From NCBI GenBank assembly GCA_030705745.1, contig JAUZPT010000008.1, forward strand, positions 1 through 23,133: 23,133 nt of DNA, read 5' to 3'. Shown piece after piece: positions 124-15,930 of this stretch. The notes beneath the pieces are model-generated. The model searched no databases. It was given only the letters and a program-made list of their open reading frames with translations, and had not been told where the DNA came from. Positions within the stretch are counted from its first letter, which is position 1. Every line of letters begins with the position of its first letter. A program made the translations under genes and the position numbers. Source of the DNA: Bacillota bacterium (GTDB taxonomy: Bacteria; Bacillota; Bacilli; Bacillales; Cytobacillaceae).

Positions 124-153
124 AAAAAAGACCCCCAACCAAAATGGTTGAGA
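123..153 (-). terminator. displaced rpsI terminator, now downstream of the MFS gene
   Basis: On the minus strand a GC-rich stem (CUCAACC paired with GGUUGGG, one U-G pair, loop AUUUU) is followed by a run of seven U (top-strand A 123-129). It is the same hairpin as the terminator downstream of intact rpsI. In its present place it would end transcription coming through the MFS transporter gene. Confidence 0.8.
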
Positions 154-209
154 GCCTTTGGAGTATTGAGAATTAACGTTTTGAGAACTGAGGCGCACGA
201 CGGGCACCT
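124..209 (-). repeat. detached copy of the rpsI 3' end (att-like direct repeat, left)
   Basis: This 86-base stretch matches 8448-8533 at 82 positions; the mismatches are at 161, 165, 170 and 203. Read on the minus strand it encodes the last 11 residues of ribosomal protein S9 ([11 protein letters not shown]), then TAA at 175-173, then the rpsI terminator. Identity stops abruptly at 210, where the rest of rpsI is absent. The one coding mismatch is synonymous (GCC for GCT). It is a gene-end duplication of the kind left when an element integrates site-specifically into the 3' end of a gene and restores that gene with its own copy. That reading is an inference, but the duplication itself is seen directly. 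Confidence 0.95.
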
Positions 210-236
210 ATCTTATTCCAAATGGTTATCTTCATT

Positions 237-1499
237 TTATCCGGATGATGCATGGGACTTCAGCCGAAATTCATAAGTACGAAATATTCTCCCATATAAA
301 TATGCAAAACTAATTTGTAAACCGGAGGCTATGTAAAAAGGCATGGCAAGTGAACCTAAACCAAAAAGATAACCACTGATATATGGGCCAACCGAAATTG
401 GAAAACGCATGGACAGGGAATTAATACTTGACGCAAAACCGCGTCTCCTGTCGCGTGTCAAGCTCACGCTAAGTGCTTGCTGTGCTCCTTGTGTACCACG
501 GTTTAGTGCTGTTCGTATCATATAAAAGATAGATGCAAGTATATAACTCGATAATAATGGCATTAGTATCAAAAGCATGCTTGCAATAAATCGAACTACC
601 ACAATTGATCGAATGGTTCCATGTTTTCGGGATAATTTTGCCTGTAAAAGCGAGGTGACACCTGTGGCGAAAAAGGTTAAAGCTAACGTGCCCCCGATTT
701 GAGTAGTGCTTGCTCCAAATTTAGCTGCAAACCAATAAGACATCATTGGTCCCGTCAATCCAATAGCAATCCCGTTCAAGACATTAATGGCCGCAAGTTT
801 GAAAACCGCTGAATTTTCCTTATTCAATATTTCTTTTTCTAAAATTCCGGTTACTTCTTTCCTACTATATAAAGACTCTCCCTCATTAATAGTAAAAATA
901 ATAAGGGCGGTGACAAGATATAAAATAAAAACAATAAAGAAAGAGAACCGATAGGATGTTGCTCCGAATGGAAACCCCTTCCATAATGCTGCTGATCCAG
1001 CCATAACCGCACCTGCCGCCATTCCAAAAAAGCTTAGAGCATTATTCAAACTATATACCTTACCCCGATTTTCTGTAAGAATGAAAGTTGCAAGCCATGC
1101 TTGCTCTGCAGGTGCACACGGACTCGGAGAACCAGCATCAGCTTTCCCAAAACCTGAAAATGTAATCGCTAAAAATAATATAAGAAAGTCTGTAGAAAAA
1201 ACTCCGACTAAGGCACATCCTGAGGTTAAAAATTCATAAAAAAGAATAAACGGTTTTCTTCCAAATCGGTCGCTATATATGCCTATGACAGGTGATAGCA
1301 CGACTCCAAGCAACCCCCCCGATGCAAGGACACTGCCAATTGCAGCAGTACTCCATCCCAATGCATGGAGATAAAGTGCCAAATCAACTACTAGCATACC
1401 TTGTCCAATGCTTCGCAAGGTATTAACAAGCATTAACTTTTTAGCCTGCATAGGGATTTGTGCATCTGAAGCATGACTCTTAGTAAGTTTCCTTTTCAA
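237..1499 (-). CDS. MFS transporter of the PQQ island, possible PQQ exporter
   Basis: The gene encodes a 420-residue, strongly hydrophobic protein with the length and hydrophobic pattern of a 12-helix major facilitator. The family's motif A between helices 2 and 3 is present (DRFGRKP, about residues 77-83). The start is TTG at 1499, preceded by an in-frame TAA two codons upstream and by a GGGTGTGA ribosome binding site. A consensus -10 (TATAAT, 1528-1533) lies just upstream, although no good -35 is visible. A hairpin terminator separates it from pqqE, so it may be transcribed alone. Its position inside the repeats beside the PQQ genes suggests export or uptake of PQQ or of the dehydrogenase substrate or product, but the sequence does not show the substrate. 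Confidence 0.85.
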   Translation of the reverse strand: MKRKLTKSHASDAQIPMQAKKLMLVNTLRSIGQGMLVVDLALYLHALGWSTAAIGSVLASGGLLGVVLSPVIGIYSDRFGRKPFILFYEFLTSGCALVGVFSTDFLILFLAITFSGFGKADAGSPSPCAPAEQAWLATFILTENRGKVYSLNNALSFFGMAAGAVMAGSAALWKGFPFGATSYRFSFFIVFILYLVTALIIFTINEGESLYSRKEVTGILEKEILNKENSAVFKLAAINVLNGIAIGLTGPMMSYWFAAKFGASTTQIGGTLALTFFATGVTSLLQAKLSRKHGTIRSIVVVRFIASMLLILMPLLSSYILASIFYMIRTALNRGTQGAQQALSVSLTRDRRRGFASSINSLSMRFPISVGPYISGYLFGLGSLAMPFYIASGLQISFAYLYGRIFRTYEFRLKSHASSG

Positions 1500-1618
1500 T
1501 ATTTATCACACCCTTTCATAGTACATTATTATAAGGAATTCCATTACTTCCAGGTATTCAAAGATCTTTTTTATAGTTCCAATTTCAAAGCTATTTATGC
1601 AAATAATTTTCTCCGAAC

Positions 1619-1656
1619 AAAAAAAGTGCCAAAATAGGCAGAATCCTAAATGGCAC
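1619..1656 (-). terminator. Rho-independent terminator after pqqE
   Basis: On the minus strand GTGCCA pairs with TGGCAC, with a second inner stem TAGG/CCTA, followed by seven T (top-strand A 1619-1625). It lies 20 bases after the pqqE stop and would end the pqqA-E unit. A shorter A-run on the other side makes it possibly bidirectional. Confidence 0.8.
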
Positions 1657-1675
1657 AAAAATTAAAAGCTTATTT

Positions 1676-2830
1676 TTATTTCTTTATCATGCTTTTAGAT
1701 GAAGGTTTTTCTAGAAGAAATTTTCGATAGATCAAAGGTGCGATTATTTCTTTGGCAGGTTTGTTGTTTATATCATGTACGGCCGCTTCAATTAGGTGAT
1801 GATCCGGTGACCACTCACAAACTGGATCCGTAGCAGATGCATTTCTCGTTAAAGCAAAAGCCTGGCAACGGCAGCCCCCTCCATCTTCATGACGAAGATC
1901 ACAAGAACTGCAAGGTTCTGGCATCCATTCTTCTCCACGGAAGTTGTTAAATGACTTCGATTCGTACCAAATTTGTTTCAGTGAAGACTTACGGGCATTC
2001 TCAAATGTAAGATCCTTAATTATTCCTGCTGTAGGACAAGGCAGAACATCCCCATTTGGGGCTACTGTTAATCCAATTGTACCCCAGCCGCCCATACAAG
2101 GCTTTGGAGTAGATGCATAATAATCAGGAATAACCCAAATAATTTCCATTTCTCTTTGAAGCCGCTCTTTAGCAGCAATATAGATTTTATTTGCCCTTTT
2201 GATTTGTTCTCGGCTTGGCAATAACCGTTCTCGATTGCGCAATGCCCAGTTATAATATTGTGCATTTGCCAGTTCCAATCGTTCAGCTCCCAATTCCTCT
2301 GCAAGCTGAATAATCTCCTGTATTTGATCAATATTCATTCGATGTATTACAACATTTAATGATAAATGCAATTCAGCATTTTTTACCGCTTTAACAGCTT
2401 CTAGTTTCTTCTCAAACGCTTTATATCCTCCGATTACATTGGAAAGCCTTGCTTCGGCTGCCTGGAAGCTTATCTGTACATTTGCTAACCCGGCCAACTT
2501 TAGTTGATGTACCTTTTCCTCCGATAATCCAATACCGCTTGTAATAAGATTCGAGTACATCTCTAACGAATTGGCATGACGGATTAACGTTTCCAAGTCG
2601 TCACGTAAAAGGGGCTCCCCTCCAGAAAAGTGAACTTCTACTACTCCCAATTCGGCAGCTTCCTTCAAAACACGGCACCAATCTTCCGTTGCCAACTCCT
2701 CTTTCTCAAGTGTTAACTCTAAAGGGTTGGAACAATATGGACAATGCAAAGGACAACGATGTGTCAACTCTGCAAGAATCGAATATGGAGCTCCGATGGT
2801 ATTGCTGCTAATTCGCTTCGATTGTGTCAT
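1676..2830 (-). CDS. pqqE: PqqE, PqqA peptide cyclase (radical SAM/SPASM)
   Basis: In this family the enzyme uses S-adenosylmethionine and iron-sulfur clusters to form the carbon-carbon bond between the conserved Glu and Tyr of PqqA, the first step of PQQ synthesis. The 384-residue protein shows the radical SAM cysteines CxxxCxxC (C26, C30, C33), a GGEP motif at 70-73, and a C-terminal SPASM region with cysteines at 245, 265, 307, 310, 320, 322 and 338 for auxiliary clusters. Length fits the family. The ATG at 2830 lies inside the end of pqqD (23-base overlap), so translation is probably coupled, in keeping with PqqE acting on the PqqA-PqqD complex. Confidence 0.95.
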   Translation of the reverse strand: MTQSKRISSNTIGAPYSILAELTHRCPLHCPYCSNPLELTLEKEELATEDWCRVLKEAAELGVVEVHFSGGEPLLRDDLETLIRHANSLEMYSNLITSGIGLSEEKVHQLKLAGLANVQISFQAAEARLSNVIGGYKAFEKKLEAVKAVKNAELHLSLNVVIHRMNIDQIQEIIQLAEELGAERLELANAQYYNWALRNRERLLPSREQIKRANKIYIAAKERLQREMEIIWVIPDYYASTPKPCMGGWGTIGLTVAPNGDVLPCPTAGIIKDLTFENARKSSLKQIWYESKSFNNFRGEEWMPEPCSSCDLRHEDGGGCRCQAFALTRNASATDPVCEWSPDHHLIEAAVHDINNKPAKEIIAPLIYRKFLLEKPSSKSMIKK

Positions 2831-3137
2831 GATTAGGGATCACCACCCATCCTTGATCCACCATTTCTTGCAGAAAATCTAAAATATCAGCCTCCATTGT
2901 TTTCAATTCAGGCAATGGCTCTGTTTCCATTAATTCGGTGCCTGTCTGCAAAGAATCTCTAATTCTTTCAACTATTGTTTTCACCGCTAGTCTTCCATCA
3001 CATAGAATAAGGATAGAGGCGGCGGTTTCGTTCATGACCACAACCTTTTCCGGTAACAGAAGGAGATGCTTTCCTCTCACTTTATCAAATTTAAGTCGTC
3101 CTTTTGCAGCAAGCTTAGGGTAGCTATTAACTAAAAT
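2808..3137 (-). CDS. pqqD: PqqD, PqqA chaperone, probable ATT start
   Basis: PqqD is a small winged-helix peptide-binding protein that presents PqqA to PqqE. The typical core is clear: KFDKVRGKHLLLLPE, then MNETAA, then LCDG. The first standard start codon in frame (GTG, 3080) would cut through that core at KVRGK. Family-like sequence (YPKLAAKGRLKFD) continues upstream to an in-frame TGA at 3140-3138, and the stretch between contains no ATG, GTG, TTG or CTG. The codon just after the TGA is ATT (3137-3135), with GGTGGTGGAG immediately upstream. I therefore place the start at ATT, giving 109 residues. The gene identity is secure; the start is an inference. Confidence 0.85.
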   Translation of the reverse strand: MLVNSYPKLAAKGRLKFDKVRGKHLLLLPEKVVVMNETAASILILCDGRLAVKTIVERIRDSLQTGTELMETEPLPELKTMEADILDFLQEMVDQGWVVIPNHDTIEAN

Positions 3138-3184
3138 TCACTCCACCACCAATCCCTTTTTTCTTATAAGTAAGGAACCATCGA

Positions 3185-3922
3185 TTACGCATTTAGCGGG
3201 AAAGCTTTTTCAATAGCATCAAGCTGCACCCATAACACATCACATTTAAAACGTAATGCTTCTACCGCTTTTTGTTGCTCCTTAGTGGTATGACAATAAG
3301 ACAACACCAGCTTTAAAGCAGTATTCGAATCACGGGGGGCTTGAGTCAAACGGTTTTGGAAATATTCAAAACCAGTGCTGTCAATCCAAGGATACAATCG
3401 CTCCATTACCTTCATTCTCTTAAAAATAAGGTCAGGGGAAAACAACTCTGTTAACGAAGAGGCAACTGCCTCGATCCACGGTTTTGTTCGCGCAAAGTTT
3501 ACATAAGCATCCACCGCAAAACGAACACCTGGTACGACTCTTTCCTCTTGTACAATTTCTTCCCTAGTTAAACCAACAGCTTCTCCCAGTCTGAGCCACG
3601 CCTCAATACCGCCATCTTGACCATGTGTGCCGTCATGGTCAATAATACGCCCAATCCATTCACGCCGTAATTCTCGGGATGGCAAGATTGAAAGAATTGC
3701 GGCATCTTTAATCGGAACTGACTTCTGGTAGTAGTATCTGTTCGCAACCCAGCCTTGAATTTGCTCCCGACTCAAGACTCCTTCATGCATCTTTATATGA
3801 AAGGGATGTTTATCATGATAATAGGAACGGCCAACATCCTTTAAACGTTCAGTAAATTCATCTTGTGACCAAATCTCTTCCTGATGTTCTTCTCTACTGA
3901 CTGACATATTTTTTCCCCGCAT
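3185..3922 (-). CDS. pqqC: PqqC, pyrroloquinoline-quinone synthase
   Basis: PqqC catalyses the last step, ring closure and oxygen-dependent oxidation to PQQ, without a metal; it has the haem-oxygenase-like helical fold. The 245-residue product shows family motifs YHDKHPFHIKMHEG (35-48), NRYYYQKSVPIKDAAILS (61-78) and DHDG (95-98). Three starts are possible: GTG at 3928, which overlaps the pqqB stop, ATG at 3922 and ATG at 3907. I prefer 3922 because GGAGGTG, embedded in the last codons of pqqB, sits 5 bases upstream. The gene lies 4 bases past the pqqB stop, so the two are translationally linked. Roughly 47 bases separate it from pqqD. Confidence 0.95.
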   Translation of the reverse strand: MRGKNMSVSREEHQEEIWSQDEFTERLKDVGRSYYHDKHPFHIKMHEGVLSREQIQGWVANRYYYQKSVPIKDAAILSILPSRELRREWIGRIIDHDGTHGQDGGIEAWLRLGEAVGLTREEIVQEERVVPGVRFAVDAYVNFARTKPWIEAVASSLTELFSPDLIFKRMKVMERLYPWIDSTGFEYFQNRLTQAPRDSNTALKLVLSYCHTTKEQQKAVEALRFKCDVLWVQLDAIEKAFPLNA

Positions 3923-3924
3923 GA

Positions 3925-4857
3925 TCACACCTCCACTTCCATGCCATCAAAAGCAACTTCAAATCCCATTCTCTCTAATGAATTTCTTTCCATGGAACCT
4001 TTTTTCAAAATGGGGTTGCTATTGTTAATGTGTATCAAGATTTTCCGCTCAGCTGGAAACGCCGCTAACTTTTCCGCTGTCCCTCCACTTCCGCCGATTG
4101 GCAAATGTCCCATATTTCGCGCATCACGCTTCGTTGCACCCATCTGTACCAATTCATCCTCTGCCCAAAAAGTACCATCTACCATTAAAATATCTGCTTT
4201 CATTAAGCTTTCTTCTACAGAAGGGGTTATCTCTTCCAGTGTAGGGAAGTATGCAAGACACTTGCCAGTTTTCTTATTATGGAGAACCAACCCGACCTCC
4301 CAAATATCTGACAGATGAAACTCCTCTTTTTTCCATTTTGTATATAGCGGTGGTTTCCTTGAAACAGGAACTGTCTCAACGATTATTGTTTCCTCGTAAT
4401 CTTCACCAGAAGGTCCTATCTGTTGCAAACATTCAGGGAAAAGAGACTTCCATTGCCAAGAACAATAGCTTTGTAACATAGGAAATACTGGAAAGGAGGA
4501 ATGCAAGGTTTTTCGTACATTTTCTGTTCCATAAATGGTTAAACAAGAGCCTTCTCTTAGTGATAATAACCCGATTGTATGATCAAGCTCAGCATCCGTT
4601 AAAATAACTCCTGCTAAAGGGGTTTCTCTTATACCAGGGCCAGCATGCAGGGAAGGATAGGACTCGATTTGTTGGTGAGCGTCAGGGCCAGCATTTATAA
4701 GATACCAATCCCTTTCATTTGCACTTATTGCAAGAGAAGATTGTAACAATGGTCGAAATGCTTCATTACCTTTGCGAACCTCTCTACAATTTATACATGC
4801 ACAGTTCCACTGTGGAAATCCTCCCCCTGCCGCTGTTCCTAAGACTCTAATTCGAAT
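3925..4857 (-). CDS. pqqB: PqqB, MBL-fold oxidoreductase of PQQ synthesis, probable ATT start
   Basis: PqqB is a metallo-beta-lactamase-fold protein of PQQ synthesis, reported as an iron-dependent hydroxylase acting on the Glu-Tyr intermediate. Starting at the first standard codon (TTG, 4749) would lose the conserved N-terminus. The frame continues upstream with RIRVLGTAAGGGFPQW and the cysteine motif NCACINC (C19, C21, C24), then reaches an in-frame TGA at 4866-4864. The only plausible initiator between is ATT at 4857-4855, with AAAGGA ten bases upstream. This gives 310 residues, normal for the family. Later motifs are DAELDH (88-93) and HINNSNPIL near the end. It overlaps the preceding small membrane-protein gene by 19 bases. 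The gene call is secure; the start codon is an inference. Confidence 0.9.
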   Translation of the reverse strand: MRIRVLGTAAGGGFPQWNCACINCREVRKGNEAFRPLLQSSLAISANERDWYLINAGPDAHQQIESYPSLHAGPGIRETPLAGVILTDAELDHTIGLLSLREGSCLTIYGTENVRKTLHSSFPVFPMLQSYCSWQWKSLFPECLQQIGPSGEDYEETIIVETVPVSRKPPLYTKWKKEEFHLSDIWEVGLVLHNKKTGKCLAYFPTLEEITPSVEESLMKADILMVDGTFWAEDELVQMGATKRDARNMGHLPIGGSGGTAEKLAAFPAERKILIHINNSNPILKKGSMERNSLERMGFEVAFDGMEVEV

Positions 4858-5081
4858 ATGGGCTCATTCCTTTCCCCTGTTGACTTCGTTTGGCTAACTT
4901 CTCGAGATTTCCCCACAAGCCTTCCAACTTGCCATCCAATTACCACATTGGAGATACCCATTAAGGAATATAATAAATAATCTCCGATTGGTTCAGGGGT
5001 TAGTAGATCCACGCCTAACCATAAGCCTGTTGTAGCAGCCCCAATAACCACACCCAGCACGGATATTAAATAACGATTCAT
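4839..5081 (-). CDS. small two-helix membrane protein in the pqq operon
   Basis: I do not recognise this 80-residue protein. It has two hydrophobic segments, about residues 4-28 and 33-57, separated by a short acidic turn (DLLTPEPIGD), followed by a polar, charged tail. ATG at 5081 is preceded by AGGTGGTGAA, the same type of site used by pqqA. It lies between pqqA and pqqB and overlaps pqqB by 19 bases, so it is co-translated with the pathway. The overlap and good ribosome binding site support a real gene. A role in anchoring the pathway at the membrane or in PqqA or PQQ handling is only a guess from position. Confidence 0.75.
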   Translation of the reverse strand: MNRYLISVLGVVIGAATTGLWLGVDLLTPEPIGDYLLYSLMGISNVVIGWQVGRLVGKSREVSQTKSTGERNEPIFELES

Positions 5082-5136
5082 TCATTTCACCACCTCTTTG
5101 TTTTGTTAAACCTATTTATAGCATGCGATACCCATG

Positions 5137-5211
5137 CTATTTTCCAACATAAGCGTACATTGTCACCTCAGAAGATGTATTAATCACTTTATATTCAGGT
5201 TTCTTCCACAT
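5137..5211 (-). CDS. pqqA: PqqA, precursor peptide of PQQ
   Basis: A 24-codon frame starts at ATG 5211 and ends with TAG at 5139-5137. It begins MWKKP, as in well-known PqqA peptides, and contains EVTMY with Glu15 and Tyr19 at the conserved spacing (E-x-x-x-Y). These are the two residues whose side chains become PQQ. Upstream is the ribosome binding site AAAGGTGG, 8 bases from the ATG. It is the first gene of the unit pqqA, small membrane gene, pqqB-C-D-E. The residues after Tyr19 (AYVGK) would be removed during maturation, but no dedicated peptidase gene is seen here. Confidence 0.95.
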   Translation of the reverse strand: MWKKPEYKVINTSSEVTMYAYVGK

Positions 5212-5352
5212 ATTAGTCACCACCTTTCATGACACCAACAATTGTGAAAATAGTTCTTAGGGGTGTCTGATTTTCCCTTTCTAAATAATCTTATGTAGGT
5301 GGTTTCCTCGAAATAACCGGAAATTTGACTGGAAGTTGTCCTAAGCGTACGG

Positions 5353-5382
5353 ATTATTGCAATTAATTACAAAAAGGGACAA
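5353..5382 (-). promoter_or_regulatory. candidate promoter for pqqA
   Basis: Minus strand: TTGTCC (5377-5382) and AATAAT (5353-5358) are separated by 18 bases. It would give a leader of about 135 bases before pqqA. The -35 is weak and overlaps the 3' arm of a hairpin, so this is tentative. Confidence 0.3.
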
Positions 5383-5416
5383 GGTGGTAGAGATACTTGT
5401 CACACCTCGCTTGTCC
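5371..5416 (-). terminator. terminator-like hairpin upstream of pqqA
   Basis: On the minus strand GGACAAG and GGTG (separated by a CGA bulge) pair with CACCTTGTCC, an 11-pair stem followed by five T (top-strand A 5371-5375). The loop contains a second GACAAG that could pair with the same 3' arm, giving a competing shorter hairpin. It may be a second terminator in series or a regulatory structure. Confidence 0.45.
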
Positions 5417-5424
5417 GTGAATGA

Positions 5425-5459
5425 ATTAAAAATAACCTGAGCCTATCGAAGCCCAGGTT
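5425..5459 (-). terminator. terminator after the dehydrogenase/lipoprotein unit
   Basis: Minus strand: AACCTGGGC pairs with GCTCAGGTT (nine pairs, one G-U), eight-base loop, then ATTTTTAA. It lies about 175 bases after the lipoprotein stop and before pqqA, so it would separate the two transcription units of the island. Confidence 0.65.
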
Positions 5460-5633
5460 GTTGCATTCATTTATTTATAAAAGCCTCATTTGAACATGAT
5501 CATTTATTTCTTTTGAGAAAGCGGACCCTTAACTTCCAATTACAAAAGTTGTTAATTAAATATCTAATCAAAAGATTAATCTCGTACCATTTTAAAAGAT
5601 GATAGGGATGCTTTTAATGTTTCATCAACTATA

Positions 5634-6104
5634 TCAATTCTCAGCGTTATTAAGGATAAATCTAACTGTCCATTCGCCCTTTTGATTCAATATCCCATGT
5701 GTTTTAAATGTCATATGAGGAGTTTCAGGTCTGTAATGCTGTAGTTGTGCTTCTATCGTTCCTTTATATTCGTTATTACTTACTTTCTTATACGAATCGG
5801 AATTTTCACGAACTAATGTATGTCCAATCCAAATATGAGGACTTTCCATCAGACTCGTGGCATGCGGATTAACTTGAATATTCGAATTGGAATGTATCGT
5901 ATAATACAGCCTAATGTTTTGACCGGAGTTTACGATGGAGTAGCCAGTTATTGTTAGTTTGATTCCGTTATCTTCGATTGAACCTAAGCCCTGATTTGAT
6001 TGGGATTCGGCACTGACCAAAGTAGGGGAGGCACAGCCAAAGAGCAAGCAAATTAATATGGCGACACCAATGAATCGCACGTTATATTTCGATAGGTTCC
6101 TCAT
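5634..6104 (-). CDS. small lipoprotein of unknown function
   Basis: The 156-residue product starts with basic residues and a hydrophobic stretch (11-22) ending in a lipobox LFGC, so Cys24 should be lipid-modified and the protein anchored outside the membrane. The remainder looks like one beta-rich domain (for example LTITGYSIVNSGQNIRLYY and WTVRFILNN). I do not recognise the family. It lies downstream of the PQQ dehydrogenase in the same orientation, about 150 bases away, with its own candidate promoter. A role as partner of the dehydrogenase, such as assembly or electron transfer, is conceivable but has no motif support: no haem-binding CxxCH and no clear copper site. Confidence 0.75.
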   Translation of the reverse strand: MRNLSKYNVRFIGVAILICLLFGCASPTLVSAESQSNQGLGSIEDNGIKLTITGYSIVNSGQNIRLYYTIHSNSNIQVNPHATSLMESPHIWIGHTLVRENSDSYKKVSNNEYKGTIEAQLQHYRPETPHMTFKTHGILNQKGEWTVRFILNNAEN

Positions 6105-6144
6105 TTTACCACCATCCTTATTTTTCGTTTATATGTTTCAACAC

Positions 6145-6174
6145 TTTATATAGTTTTTTTTATAAATGAAACAA
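6145..6174 (-). promoter_or_regulatory. candidate promoter for the lipoprotein gene
   Basis: Minus strand: TTGTTT (6169-6174), 18-base spacer containing eight consecutive A, and TATAAA (6145-6150), 40 bases upstream of the ATG at 6104. Between it and the dehydrogenase stop are two small hairpins (GCCTC/GAGGC at 6223-6239 and GAGTCC/GGACTC near 6178-6203) without good T-tracts. Confidence 0.4.
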
Positions 6175-6254
6175 TCTGAGTCCGAATGAAGAGATTGGAC
6201 TCGGACTGCTTCGAGAAAACTGGCCTCTATTATGGAGGCATCCTTACGTACACA

Positions 6255-8189
6255 TTATTTCATTTTAGATAACCATTCTGCTAGCGCTTCTGCATCTGCA
6301 CCTTTAGCTAGGCCAGCCGGCATACGATCACCGCCGTTTAAGATTTGATTCAATATGGCTTCTTTTGACATCGATTTACCGATGTGTTGAAGATTTGGAG
6401 CCGTTGCGCCCTGAAGGTTACCCCCATGACAAGAAACACAACTACTTTTGTAAACTTTTACCGGATCGACACTGACAGTTTTGTCGGCTTCCCCTTGTAA
6501 TTTTGCATTTTGATTAGGGGCTGGGATAGGTTCCTTACCACCGAGTCCATAAACCACAACCCTTGTCCCACCAGTAATCACCGCAACATATTGTTTGCCG
6601 TCAACCATATAAATGGCGGGCGCCATTTTAATTTGTTTTCCCCCACTTTTCATGCTCCATAATACATTCCCTTTTTTAATATCGAGAGCATTCACCGTTC
6701 CGTCCAATTCCCCGTAAAAAGCAAGACCGGAAGCAGTACTTGTAAATCCCCCATACATCGGATCGTCGGTATTGATTTGATAAACTTTTTTCCCTGTATT
6801 AATGTCAATAGCTGTAATGGTACCAGAAGTATCAACATTTGCTGGTAAAGGAAGTATCTTCGTACCAGGGAAGGTATTGTTATCTTTCTCAATCTCTTTC
6901 CGATCTTTTGCTGCTAACATTAAATTCGGGCTATTAATACCAGGAATAAGCACAAAGTTGGTTTCAGGATCATAAGTCTCCGGGGCAAAGCTTTCTCCAC
7001 CTGGCGTACCCGGCCATTGAAGCTTAACTTTATTCGGATCACTTGGTGGTTTTGAATGTTGAATTTTTACAAACGGTACACCATCATATATTGTTTTTCC
7101 AGTTTTGGCATCCCATGCATACCATTTTCCATTCTTTCCGCCTTCAACAACGATTTTCCTCACGTTACCACTAACCTTGGCATTGAGAACCATCGGTGTG
7201 GCAGCAGCATCATAATCCCAAACATCGTGATTAACTTCGGAGGATGCCCACTTTAATTTCCCCGTTTTACTGTCCAAAGCGACGATAGAATCCGTATATG
7301 GATTTTCCCCTTTTCTATCATCATCGTTAAAGTCAGGGGCTGGATTCCCCACTGCAAAATACATCATATCAGTATCTGGATCGAACGACATCGGTGTCCA
7401 TACGGAGCCCCCGCCAGTATATTTACCCTTCACCCAGCCTTTTCCTCTTTCAGGAACGGTCCAAAACGGTTCTTTCCAGAGTGGTTCGAGGCTATCTGCT
7501 TTAAACGCCATAACGAAGCCTCGCGTACCATTATCACCACCGCTGCTTCCAACGTAAATGTTGCCATCATAATACATTGGAGCCGAAGATTCATAGTATC
7601 GGTTTTCTAATTTAATGGAAGGAACATAATCCCAAAAGTTGACCATTTTAATTAGTTTTCCGGTTTTCGCATCAAGTTTGGCCAGCCGATTGTCTATCAT
7701 CAAGACATATACATTTCCATTGGCCACAGCAACACCTCTACTTGCCACATTGGATTGCCATGGCAAACTATTAAGATGATCAAGTACTGTCTTAGGAGGT
7801 GTCCATGCCCAAAGTTTCTTTCCACTTCCGGCATCGATTGCAAATACATGATTTTTAGCACTAGTCACATACAGGACCCCGTTTTGTACGACAGGGAAAT
7901 CCTCTTGTAAATTCGGAACATCCTTATTCCATTCCAAGATATCCTGTTGCCATACAATCCCCATTTTTTTCACATTATCTTTTGTAATCTTTTGATAGGG
8001 TACATGTCGGGTATGTTGAAGGTCATAACCCCAATTTGGGAATCCTGTCTCCTTCACCACATTTACCTGGTTAGATTTCTTGGTTTTTTCCTCTTTATTT
8101 GCTTTGTTCTGTTTATTATTCGTTTGACAACCAACAATGACAATACTGGCAAGCAAAACCGAACCTGTTACCTTTAAAAAGCTCTTCAC
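6255..8189 (-). CDS. lipid-anchored PQQ dehydrogenase with C-terminal cytochrome c domain
   Basis: The 644-residue protein is a quinohaemoprotein. Residues 1-21 form a lipoprotein signal (lipobox IVGC, Cys21). Residues about 50-550 form the eight-bladed propeller with repeated tryptophan-docking motifs (such as DSKTGKLKW). Residues about 575-640 form a cytochrome c domain with CVSCH (584-588) and a likely axial Met623. By alignment to methanol dehydrogenases, Trp264 stacks on PQQ, Asn282 and Asp325 (in HDVWDYD) match metal and catalytic residues, and Lys352 replaces the PQQ-contacting Arg. Asp327, two residues after the catalytic Asp, is the position associated with lanthanide enzymes. Oddities: Asp219 stands where the metal-binding Glu is expected, and the vicinal Cys-Cys pair is replaced by Gln145-Ser146. 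GTG start with AAGGAGGG upstream. Substrate unknown, probably an alcohol or aldehyde. Confidence 0.9.
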   Translation of the reverse strand: MKSFLKVTGSVLLASIVIVGCQTNNKQNKANKEEKTKKSNQVNVVKETGFPNWGYDLQHTRHVPYQKITKDNVKKMGIVWQQDILEWNKDVPNLQEDFPVVQNGVLYVTSAKNHVFAIDAGSGKKLWAWTPPKTVLDHLNSLPWQSNVASRGVAVANGNVYVLMIDNRLAKLDAKTGKLIKMVNFWDYVPSIKLENRYYESSAPMYYDGNIYVGSSGGDNGTRGFVMAFKADSLEPLWKEPFWTVPERGKGWVKGKYTGGGSVWTPMSFDPDTDMMYFAVGNPAPDFNDDDRKGENPYTDSIVALDSKTGKLKWASSEVNHDVWDYDAAATPMVLNAKVSGNVRKIVVEGGKNGKWYAWDAKTGKTIYDGVPFVKIQHSKPPSDPNKVKLQWPGTPGGESFAPETYDPETNFVLIPGINSPNLMLAAKDRKEIEKDNNTFPGTKILPLPANVDTSGTITAIDINTGKKVYQINTDDPMYGGFTSTASGLAFYGELDGTVNALDIKKGNVLWSMKSGGKQIKMAPAIYMVDGKQYVAVITGGTRVVVYGLGGKEPIPAPNQNAKLQGEADKTVSVDPVKVYKSSCVSCHGGNLQGATAPNLQHIGKSMSKEAILNQILNGGDRMPAGLAKGADAEALAEWLSKMK

Positions 8190-8447
8190 GAAAATACCCT
8201 CCTTACATTATGAAGTATTAATATTTGGTGAATTCTGATGATGCACTGTTCAAATTTAGGTCTATTGCCTCCTTAAGACAAGCTTATTTTTATAAGAACA
8301 ATGGTATAATTGCCCAAAACATGATTAACTATGCAAGTTGTGACTAATCCTTCCTTCCCTTTTGTTGGAAATGTGAGTGATATGCTGGATTACACTAAAT
8401 TCTTCCGAGTTATCCACACCTGTAAAATTTATAATTTTCCAGACGAT
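8190..8447. other. upstream region of the dehydrogenase, inside the right island edge
   Basis: No gene is supported here. It contains a candidate promoter at 8289-8317, an orphan AAGGAGG at about 8269-8275 with no start codon after it, a sequence matching the DnaA-box consensus TTATCCACA (8410-8418, plus strand), and a short AT palindrome (AAAATT-TAT-AATTTT) next to it. The edge of the rpsI-end repeat is at 8448. Confidence 0.6.
8289..8317 (-). promoter_or_regulatory. candidate promoter for the PQQ dehydrogenase
   Basis: Minus strand: TTGGGC (8312-8317), 17-base spacer, TATAAA (8289-8294). It would give a leader of about 90 bases. The -35 is weak; the call rests on the -10, the spacing and the position. 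Confidence 0.35.
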
Positions 8448-8478
8448 AAAAAAGACCCCCAACCAAAATGGTTGAGAG
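8448..8478 (-). terminator. Rho-independent terminator of rplM-rpsI
   Basis: Minus strand: stem CUCAACC/GGUUGGG with loop AUUUU and six T (top-strand A 8448-8453), about 20 bases after the rpsI stop. It ends the ribosomal block before the island genes. Confidence 0.85.
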
Positions 8479-8533
8479 CCTTTGAAGTGTTGATAATTAA
8501 CGTTTTGAGAACTGAGGCGCACGACGAGCACCT
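8448..8533 (-). repeat. rpsI 3' end, att-like direct repeat (right)
   Basis: This is the partner of 124-209: last codons of intact rpsI, stop codon, and terminator. The identity runs from the terminator T-tract into the coding sequence and stops at 8534, within codon Lys119 of rpsI. If the island integrated by recombination in the gene end, this copy may have arrived with the island and now completes the host gene. Confidence 0.95.
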
Positions 8534-8889
8534 TTAAGACCGTATTTTTTACGTTCTTTCATACGTGCATCACGAGTCAATAGACCTGCGCGCTTTAATG
8601 TTGGACGGAATTCTGGATCAGCTTGAAGTAACGCACGAGCGATACCGTGGCGGATTGCGCCAGCTTGACCAGTGTATCCTCCACCGCTTACGTTTACAAG
8701 AATGTCGTAAGAACCAAGAGTTTCAGTAGCAACCAATGGTTGTTTAACAACTTCACGTAACGCTTCGAATGGGATATAGTTTGTAATTTCACGATCGTTA
8801 ATTAGAATGTTTCCAGTGCCGGGAACTAAACGTACGCGAGCAACTGAACTTTTACGACGACCAGTACCAATGTATTGAACTTGTGCCAA
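8497..8889 (-). CDS. rpsI: 30S ribosomal protein S9
   Basis: The gene encodes 130 residues starting [13 protein letters not shown] and ending with the family's basic tail, PQFSKR, which reaches the P site of the 30S subunit. Length is standard for Bacillus S9. It is the second gene of the rplM-rpsI unit, with AAGGAGG before its ATG. Its final 11 codons are duplicated at the far end of the PQQ island. The residues encoded by that part are the same in both copies, so the protein is unaffected. Confidence 0.98.
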
Positions 8890-14771: not shown

Positions 14772-15161
<390 letters not shown>

Positions 15162-15185
15162 TTAAAAGAGTACCTCCTTTACCGA

Positions 15186-15551
15186 TTATTTCTTCTTGTT
15201 CGCAACAGTCTTACGAGGACCTTTACGAGTACGAGCATTGTTTTTCGTGTTTTGTCCGCGAACCGGTAATCCACGACGATGACGCAATCCACGATAGCAG
15301 CCAATTTCCATTAAACGTTTAATGTTAAGGGAAATTTCGCGTCGCAAGTCACCTTCAACTTTTAATTTGTCGATGCTTTCACGGATTTTATTTAACTCGT
15401 CTTCAGTTAAATCACGCACACGTGTATCTTCAGAAACACCAGCTTCTGCAAGAATTTTTTGTGCAGTGTTCTTGCCAATACCATAAATGTAAGTCAAAGA
15501 GATAACTACACGTTTTTCACGTGGAATATCTACACCAGCAATACGTGCCAT
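15186..15551 (-). CDS. rpsM: 30S ribosomal protein S13
   Basis: S13 sits in the head of the small subunit and contacts tRNA and the large subunit. The frame is open to a TTG at 15572, but that codon lies within the ribosome binding site AAGGAGGTG; the ATG at 15551 gives [10 protein letters not shown] and 121 residues, the standard length. The C-terminal basic tail ([15 protein letters not shown]) is intact. Confidence 0.97.
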
Positions 15552-15574
15552 AAATGAGCGCACCTCCTTCAATA

Positions 15575-15930
<356 letters not shown>

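Follow-up and report, generated by a model that had tools for sequence, protein, structure and literature searches.

A PQQ island with a truncated second rpsI end in the variable interval between rpsI and ybaK

The stretch of DNA analyzed in this report (the window, 23,133 nucleotides) is the entire contig C545 of genome G000 and contains a PQQ gene cluster that lies between two copies of the rpsI 3' end. Such an arrangement raises the question whether the repeat is the scar of a site-specific integration and, if not, by which route the cluster reached this position. The genome consists of 566 contigs and is 85.68% complete with 4.9% contamination.

A repeat search of the window yielded a direct repeat of 86 nt with 95% identity (124–209 and 8448–8533). 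The next-longest direct repeat among the 20 repeat families listed has 32 nt and 72% identity. On recount, 82 of 86 bases are identical with mismatches at positions 161, 165, 170 and 203. Both copies comprise the last 11 codons, the stop codon and the terminator of rpsI in the same orientation. They give the same translation and the sole coding mismatch (203) is synonymous. Thus, the repeat at both ends of the 8.2-kb PQQ segment is real, and its coordinates, orientation, identity and single silent coding difference are as described in an earlier sequence-only reading of this DNA. That reading had also proposed an insertion beside rpsI that leaves the gene functional. Indeed, rpsI is complete and keeps its own end. 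The segment between the copies (210–8447) has a length of 8238 bp. The features are as follows.

1–123, no strand assigned: outer flank; 1–26 are identical to bases immediately before ybaK on another contig of this genome, C132
124–209, minus strand: outer copy of the rpsI 3' end; the att core is incomplete at its start and there is no right arm (repeat search, recount)
210–236, minus strand: right junction spacer; its first bases are common to G001, where a ybaK fragment comes next (sequence comparison)
237–1499, minus strand: MFS transporter (PF07690)
1676–2830, minus strand: pqqE (TIGR02109)
2808–3080, minus strand: pqqD (PF05402; TIGR03859 2 bits under its cut-off)
3185–3928, minus strand: pqqC (TIGR02111)
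3925–4857, minus strand: pqqB, 310 aa, apparently with an ATT start inferred from the frame (TIGR02108)
4839–5081, minus strand: 80-aa protein, no family; the 3' end of the gene overlaps the start of pqqB
5137–5211, minus strand: pqqA candidate, MWKKPEYKVINTSSEVTMYAYVGK (pattern search, translation)
5634–6104, minus strand: lipoprotein-like protein, 156 aa, no family; conserved beside the dehydrogenase in other loci
6255–8189, minus strand: PQQ-type alcohol dehydrogenase with a C-terminal cytochrome c domain and the motif WDYD (PF01011, PF13442; TIGR03075 below its cut-off)
8448–8533, minus strand: inner copy, formed by the last 11 codons, stop codon and terminator of rpsI itself (repeat search, recount)
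8497–8889, minus strand: rpsI, complete (ORF list)

Gene content of the island

Read from rpsI, the island encodes the dehydrogenase, the lipoprotein-like protein, PqqA, the 80-aa protein, PqqB, PqqC, PqqD, PqqE and the MFS transporter. All of pqqA to pqqE are present. PqqB, PqqC and PqqE score above the NCBIfam cut-offs and PqqD above that of Pfam, whereas pqqA was recognized by a pattern search, which gave a candidate before pqqB in each of 22 loci. The family profile search assigned MFS, Radical_SAM/SPASM (PqqE), PqqD, TENA/PQQC, Lactamase_B_2 (PqqB) and PQQ propeller plus cytochrome c families to the eight larger ORFs of the segment, two of which match no family. No recombinase or transposase family is found among these eight ORFs, in agreement with the earlier statement that no recombinase lies between the repeats. 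With a precursor, maturation enzymes, a transporter and an oxidizing enzyme that has its own cytochrome c domain, the block looks self-sufficient. The fused cytochrome c domain scores nearest to c551/c550 models, below their cut-offs.

The dehydrogenase of the island probably uses PQQ. An extra aspartate, as in WDYD, is a mark of lanthanide-dependent alcohol dehydrogenases. In the alignment, this second aspartate is present two places after the catalytic aspartate of the WD pair. The WDYD of the window's enzyme aligns with WDYD of the XoxF structure 4mae and with WDFD of 6zcv and 6zcw; WDYT is found at this motif in 8gy2 and 1kb0. WDYD is conserved in 20 of the 21 best homologues (Bacillaceae-type loci) and the exception, a protein of G075, is only 31% identical. 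By motif, the enzyme is a predicted lanthanide-type PQQ alcohol dehydrogenase.

L078, L079, L080, L083, L086, G009 and G158 encode a second type of PQQ dehydrogenase (~61–63% identical) together with a divergent lipoprotein-like gene, either in addition to the window's type or in its place. The start of pqqB is unusual as well. There is no ATG, GTG or TTG between the in-frame stop codon and the GGGFPQW motif in 22 of 22 loci, and all 22 have ATT at the expected start (4855–4857 of the window, minus strand) behind a GAAAGGA-like site. Apparently, pqqB has a conserved AUU start codon that overlaps the preceding gene.

Variation between rpsI and ybaK and transfer of PQQ loci

The genus sample comprises four genomes (G000, which holds the window, G001, G002 and G003). 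In G001, a single contig of 4.9 Mb, the order is rpsI, island, rpsI end, ybaK and cwlD. The two copies are 92.9% identical over 85 aligned bases and 89.9% over 99 in another alignment. In G002 and G003, rpsI and its terminator are directly followed by ybaK. Both have a single rpsI end and no match to pqqC. Thus, the empty site that had been suggested for close relatives exists in two of the four genomes. A further repeat copy and a recombinase had been sought beyond the outer copy. In G001, ybaK and cwlD are followed within the 18.7 kb beyond it by a salA-like gene and an rRNA/tRNA region. No integrase was noticed by eye among the ORFs listed there, and no tandem element was seen next to the island. 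The G001 genome adds a single further match to the repeat (26 bp).

The outer flank (1–123) is matched in 2 of 193 family genomes, namely in G000 itself, where contig C132 also matches, and by one weak hit of 37 bp. Positions 1–26 are identical to positions 4810–4835 of C132 (L181), just upstream of ybaK, after which the sequences differ. Since these 26 bases equal the stretch upstream of ybaK, the outer flank is most likely the ybaK side. Past the shared bases, C132 leads to a gene with a histidine-kinase ATPase domain instead of the side of the PQQ island. This could reflect polymorphism of the site within the population or a mixed bin. Beyond the repeat, the outer flanks of the window and G001 show no similarity.

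The interval between rpsI and ybaK is variable in other genomes, too. Twenty further genomes were taken, regardless of repeat number, from a similarity-ordered list, which is not a random sample. In 19 of these, both genes are located in one stretch at a distance of 0.7–17 kb, exceeding 1 kb in 18 of the 19. Neither a second rpsI end nor an rpsI-type integrase was found in any of these 19 stretches. Therefore, the interval varies without them, and repeats and integrases mark only some of the variable intervals.

A 141-bp query with the repeat, for which the best five candidates per genome were scored, was matched in 147 of 151 family genomes, at least 28 of them with two or more matches. In some genomes, multiple matches are terminators or lie in distant places only. 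In selected stretches from the family, a tyrosine recombinase is located beside rpsI and an rpsI end at the far side. The recombinases of G134, G076 and G061 contain Phage_integrase and the arm-binding domain Arm-DNA-bind_4 (Pfam). The cargo includes HsdM and HsdR in the G076 element and YcaO and nitroreductase domains in a unit of G061 (Pfam). The cargo of G134 and G079 is coat-like by eye only, and one such protein tested matched no family. G061 has a tandem arrangement consisting of rpsI, an integrase element, an rpsI end, the YcaO unit without integrase, another rpsI end and later ybaK. By eye, a similar-looking YcaO unit lies behind an integrase in G016 and without one in G158. The YcaO/nitroreductase unit is seen at rpsI in three genera, with and without integrase (L057 3689–9186, L164 5305–10829 and L174 2661–8156; families were tested in L057 only).

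The right ends of the integrase elements share TTGACCACATTCTGACCAC, followed about 100–150 bases on by TTTCTTCATATT and ATGAAAGAACG. The latter is the start of the att core in the rpsI end. GACCAC repeats are also present after the rpsI terminator at the left ends. Some PQQ copies adjoin comparable ends. L077 (Heyndrickxia sporothermodurans, the species name as given in its sequence record) has a canonical-looking att right end after the MFS gene, and L082 and L087 have att-like ends before their dehydrogenase. Thus, integrase elements have handled PQQ copies.

A PqqC close to that of the window (E≤1e-60) is encoded in 18 of 193 family genomes. A PqqC scan of a species-level genome set found 40 loci, 13 of which belong to Bacillaceae or Fictibacillaceae (L077–L089). 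Among 22 distinct PQQ loci, nine follow immediately on an intact rpsI (window, G001, G009, G121, L078, L083–L086) and four adjoin an rpsI end without the intact gene (L077, L081, L082, L087). At the remaining nine no rpsI end was detected (L079, L080, L088, L089, G194, G158, G105, G112, G075), which speaks against a strict link between PQQ and rpsI. The same site is occupied in several genera. H. camelliae and FJAT-49736 have the PQQ genes in the interval from rpsI to ybaK but no second rpsI end, and G121 has a terminator-like copy only (~38 bp, 94.7%) after the MFS gene.

On the complete chromosome of L082 (Neobacillus sp. SuZ13), the PQQ block and an rpsI end are located at ~2.98 Mb and secY at 0.14 Mb. 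This displaced block is flanked by a direct repeat of 694 bp with 92% identity (4383–5062 and 15031–15721) formed by an AAA-ATPase-like gene, and a core-like sequence lies next to it. The PQQ block of L087 starts 2.6 kb from a contig end; it may not be displaced but stand in tandem behind an element located at rpsI. Directly before its att-like right end and PQQ block there are 24 tRNA genes in a row (109–2322), which may be element cargo or an ordinary tRNA cluster.

Trees of PqqBCE and SecY were compared and constrained groupings were subjected to AU tests. In the PqqBCE tree, the window, G001 and H. sporothermodurans group together (support 100/100) with FJAT-49736 next (96/99). In the SecY tree, on the other hand, FJAT-49736 groups with H. 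camelliae (100/100). The AU tests reject a single clade of the three Heyndrickxia-type loci (p = 1.5e-46), a clade of the Heyndrickxia type with Fictibacillus (p = 2.2e-8) and the grouping of the N. cucumis/drentensis species group with L081 (p = 2.6e-42). The right half of the island, compared per 300 bp, is 91–98% identical to G001 and 86–96% to H. sporothermodurans, whereas the secY DNA of the window is 84.1% identical to G001 and 69.8% to H. camelliae. Because the trees conflict and the identity of the right half is far above that of secY, the island is laterally acquired, in agreement with the earlier reading. The G001 island is a mosaic. Its dehydrogenase part is 87–96% identical to Neobacillus cucumis; its pqq-MFS part is 85–96% identical to H. 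sporothermodurans and only ~57–76% to N. cucumis. Homologous recombination of segments would be the readiest cause.

A search with the MFS protein in 397 sampled genomes of the order gave hits in 11 genomes at E≤1e-120. One of these is G000 itself and the other ten matches are 61–72% identical; no donor with the exact junction was found among them. A plasmid route was considered and rejected; all 17 PLSDB matches are Gram-negative, 66–70% identical and cover at most 4% of the query.

The right junction and the origin of the island

The outer copy of the window begins at AGGTGC, 29 bases into the att core, and that of G001 27 bases in. Where relatives have an integrase next to rpsI, their far copy starts 27–29 bases further upstream (ATGAAAGAACG...) and follows the shared right arm. 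No right arm is present in the ~370 bases before the outer copy of the window or before that of G001. For a Macrococcus island with the same target, whose att site measures 61 bp, strand exchange is described to take place in the initial 8 bases (PMC5341023). Judged by position, the part missing from the window's outer copy would be the strand-exchange part.

In G001, the 46 nt between the MFS gene and the outer copy match the start of a Heyndrickxia-type ybaK (40/46 in H. camelliae and 38/46 in FJAT-49736). The 23 other ybaK starts compared, among them the own ybaK of G001 (28/46), reach at most 30/46, and the best match elsewhere in that 12.5-kb locus is 28/46. The window and G001 share bases up to CATTTGGAA at the right junction, including the junction base. 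The junction of the window could be derived from a G001-like junction by small deletions. Each outer copy is closer to the rpsI end of its own genome (95.3% in the window, 92.9% in G001) than the outer copies are to each other (89.5%). This would be expected if later crossovers fell within the repeat; gene conversion would fit equally well.

The repeat is not a clean att pair, since the outer copy lacks the core start and the right arm, no recombinase is present in the island and a foreign ybaK fragment is found at the G001 junction. Thus, the earlier interpretation as a scar of site-specific integration is not supported. Mobilization in trans, which had been offered as an explanation for the missing recombinase, would with an integrase of this type lack a normal attR because the outer copy starts inside the core without an arm. 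In addition, none of the four genus genomes has a match to the rpsI-type integrase at E≤1e-40 (best ten candidates per genome scored). The other suggestion, a remnant of a larger element, is possible because the PQQ copies in L077, L082 and L087 adjoin att-like ends.

The segment is best explained as a metabolic island that was acquired horizontally and occupies the variable region from the core gene rpsI to the core gene ybaK. For its arrival, a donor segment rpsI-PQQ-ybaK with homologous recombination at the left end and an illegitimate join at the right end is somewhat favored. Heyndrickxia-like DNA with PQQ genes between rpsI and ybaK would have entered the lineage of the window and G001. 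On the left side, the donor segment would have been joined by homologous recombination. On the right side, a short non-homologous join would have connected donor ybaK at about codon 15 to recipient rpsI at about codon 120, with ~3 shared bp, and so would have left the second rpsI 3' end. Later spread between lineages may have occurred by homologous recombination, with homology provided by the flanking core genes and the repeat. In the deeper history, rpsI-specific tyrosine-recombinase elements beside PQQ may first have brought these genes to the site. Support for this reading comes from the bare sites of G002 and G003, the tree conflict, the high identity of the right half, the mosaic of G001 and its Heyndrickxia-type ybaK fragment, the position of the PQQ genes in H. 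camelliae and FJAT-49736, the likeness of each outer copy to the rpsI end of its own genome, the intervals that vary without integrase and the integrase-less hotspots described elsewhere (PMC5635113). Several observations count against it. L077, which is closest in PQQ sequence besides the window/G001 pair, carries an att-like right end, and such ends precede the dehydrogenase in L082 and L087. No donor with the exact junction was found in the search, and the unlike outer flanks of the window and G001 are not explained by a single shared event alone.

The same att-like ends speak for an integrase origin, the next candidate and a tentative one. PQQ would have arrived as, or beside, an rpsI-specific tyrosine-recombinase element and the copies would be attL and attR. 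Later deletions would have removed the integrase, the right arm and the beginning of the right core, so that a CIME-like remnant was left. Integrase elements of such a design exist at rpsI in the family, an integrase-less unit stands in tandem with an integrase-bearing one in G061, and CIMEs at rpsI in tandem with ICEs or IMEs are described (PMC7563491). However, the outer copies of both the window and G001 are devoid of core start and arm, the foreign ybaK fragment is positioned exactly at the G001 junction and the integrase is unmatched in the four genus genomes under the threshold given above. Somewhat less probable is a recombinase-free cassette rpsI-PQQ-rpsI' that docks via RecA at the conserved end of the essential rpsI gene in Bacillaceae recipients and needs an integrase only for the first entry. 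If true, a predicted lanthanide-type oxidation module would be shuttled together with its own cofactor between Gram-positive families.

The remaining explanations have far less weight. A local duplication is improbable. In this case, a tandem or slippage event would have copied the rpsI end independently of how PQQ arrived, and an insertion or rearrangement of PQQ or its neighbors would have come later. The terminator-like copy of G121 shows that gene-end copies can arise or decay in parts, but the window and G001 have the junction base and the bases left of it in common, and G002 and G003 have one rpsI end each. An old rpsI-PQQ-ybaK locus that was inherited vertically and lost many times would account for the nine loci directly behind an intact rpsI in several genera. 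This explanation is very unlikely in view of the tree conflict with its three rejected groupings, the island identity far above that of secY and the presence of pqqC in just 18 of 193 family genomes. Even less credible is an assembly artefact of the metagenome bin. The contig does end 123 bp past the outer copy, and C132 shares the last 26 bp before it runs into the histidine-kinase-like gene, but the arrangement recurs in the one-contig genome G001.

Relation to known systems

The 3' end of rpsI is a described integration site in Firmicutes (PMC2858755, PMC5357655, PMC7563491, PMC5341023), and rpsI-associated integrases in Bacillus are noted in the Macrococcus paper (PMC5341023). The first two and the last of these sources support the earlier remark on integrative elements at this gene. 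As in Macrococcus McRImecD (PMC5341023), the E. faecium esp PAI (PMC2858755) and streptococcal ICEs/IMEs (PMC5357655), the insertion is at the rpsI 3' end with the gene intact, and the far-side direct repeat includes the rpsI end. These elements are described with a tyrosine integrase and, where shown, with transfer or circularization, whereas the island has no integrase, a truncated outer copy and PQQ cargo. Accordingly, it shares with rpsI-specific integrative elements the insertion at the rpsI end and lacks the integrase, the complete core and the right arm.

The island resembles a CIME as described in PMC7563491 in that cargo, with no gene for recombination or transfer, occupies a target of integrative elements. 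The att sites are retained in a CIME according to that source, whereas part of the core and the arm are absent from the outer copy here, and no tandem element was seen beside the island of G001. As for the derivation of a CIME from an ICE or IME by deletion, att-like ends are seen beside other PQQ copies only.

Integrase-less hotspots with recombination at the flanking core genes have been described (PMC5635113). The present interval is similar in that what lies between this pair of core genes varies (18 of 19 intervals above 1 kb), in most cases with no integrase, and the mosaic island of G001 is a sign of homologous recombination. In contrast to these hotspots as described there, a direct repeat and a fragment of a foreign gene are kept at one end. 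In homology-facilitated illegitimate recombination (PMC3240628), incoming DNA is joined homologously at one end and illegitimately at the other. That source describes it from laboratory transfer, whereas here it is inferred from a single natural junction.

Judged by title, none of the open-access papers among the matches listed deals with a PQQ module at rpsI, in line with the earlier statement that none was known. Thus, the hotspot is already known, while the PQQ cargo and this junction are new within the literature searched. The island adds a complete cofactor-plus-enzyme module to the known cargo of the rpsI hotspot, and PQQ cargo crosses between families of Bacillota and has been passed among soil-type bacteria. 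A gene-end direct repeat is usually taken for the mark of an integrase, but here a homologous/illegitimate join seems the better explanation. The sequence reveals the donor type, the breakpoint and the mosaic switch, which makes the model testable.

Copies of the rpsI end are also carried by mobile DNA of other hosts. In Listeria phage vB_LmoS_188, 81 bp of the rpsI end are located next to an integrase (L180, 3501–3581), and the Peribacillus simplex plasmid pSHB26 holds a copy of the rpsI end (L179, 9001–9076).
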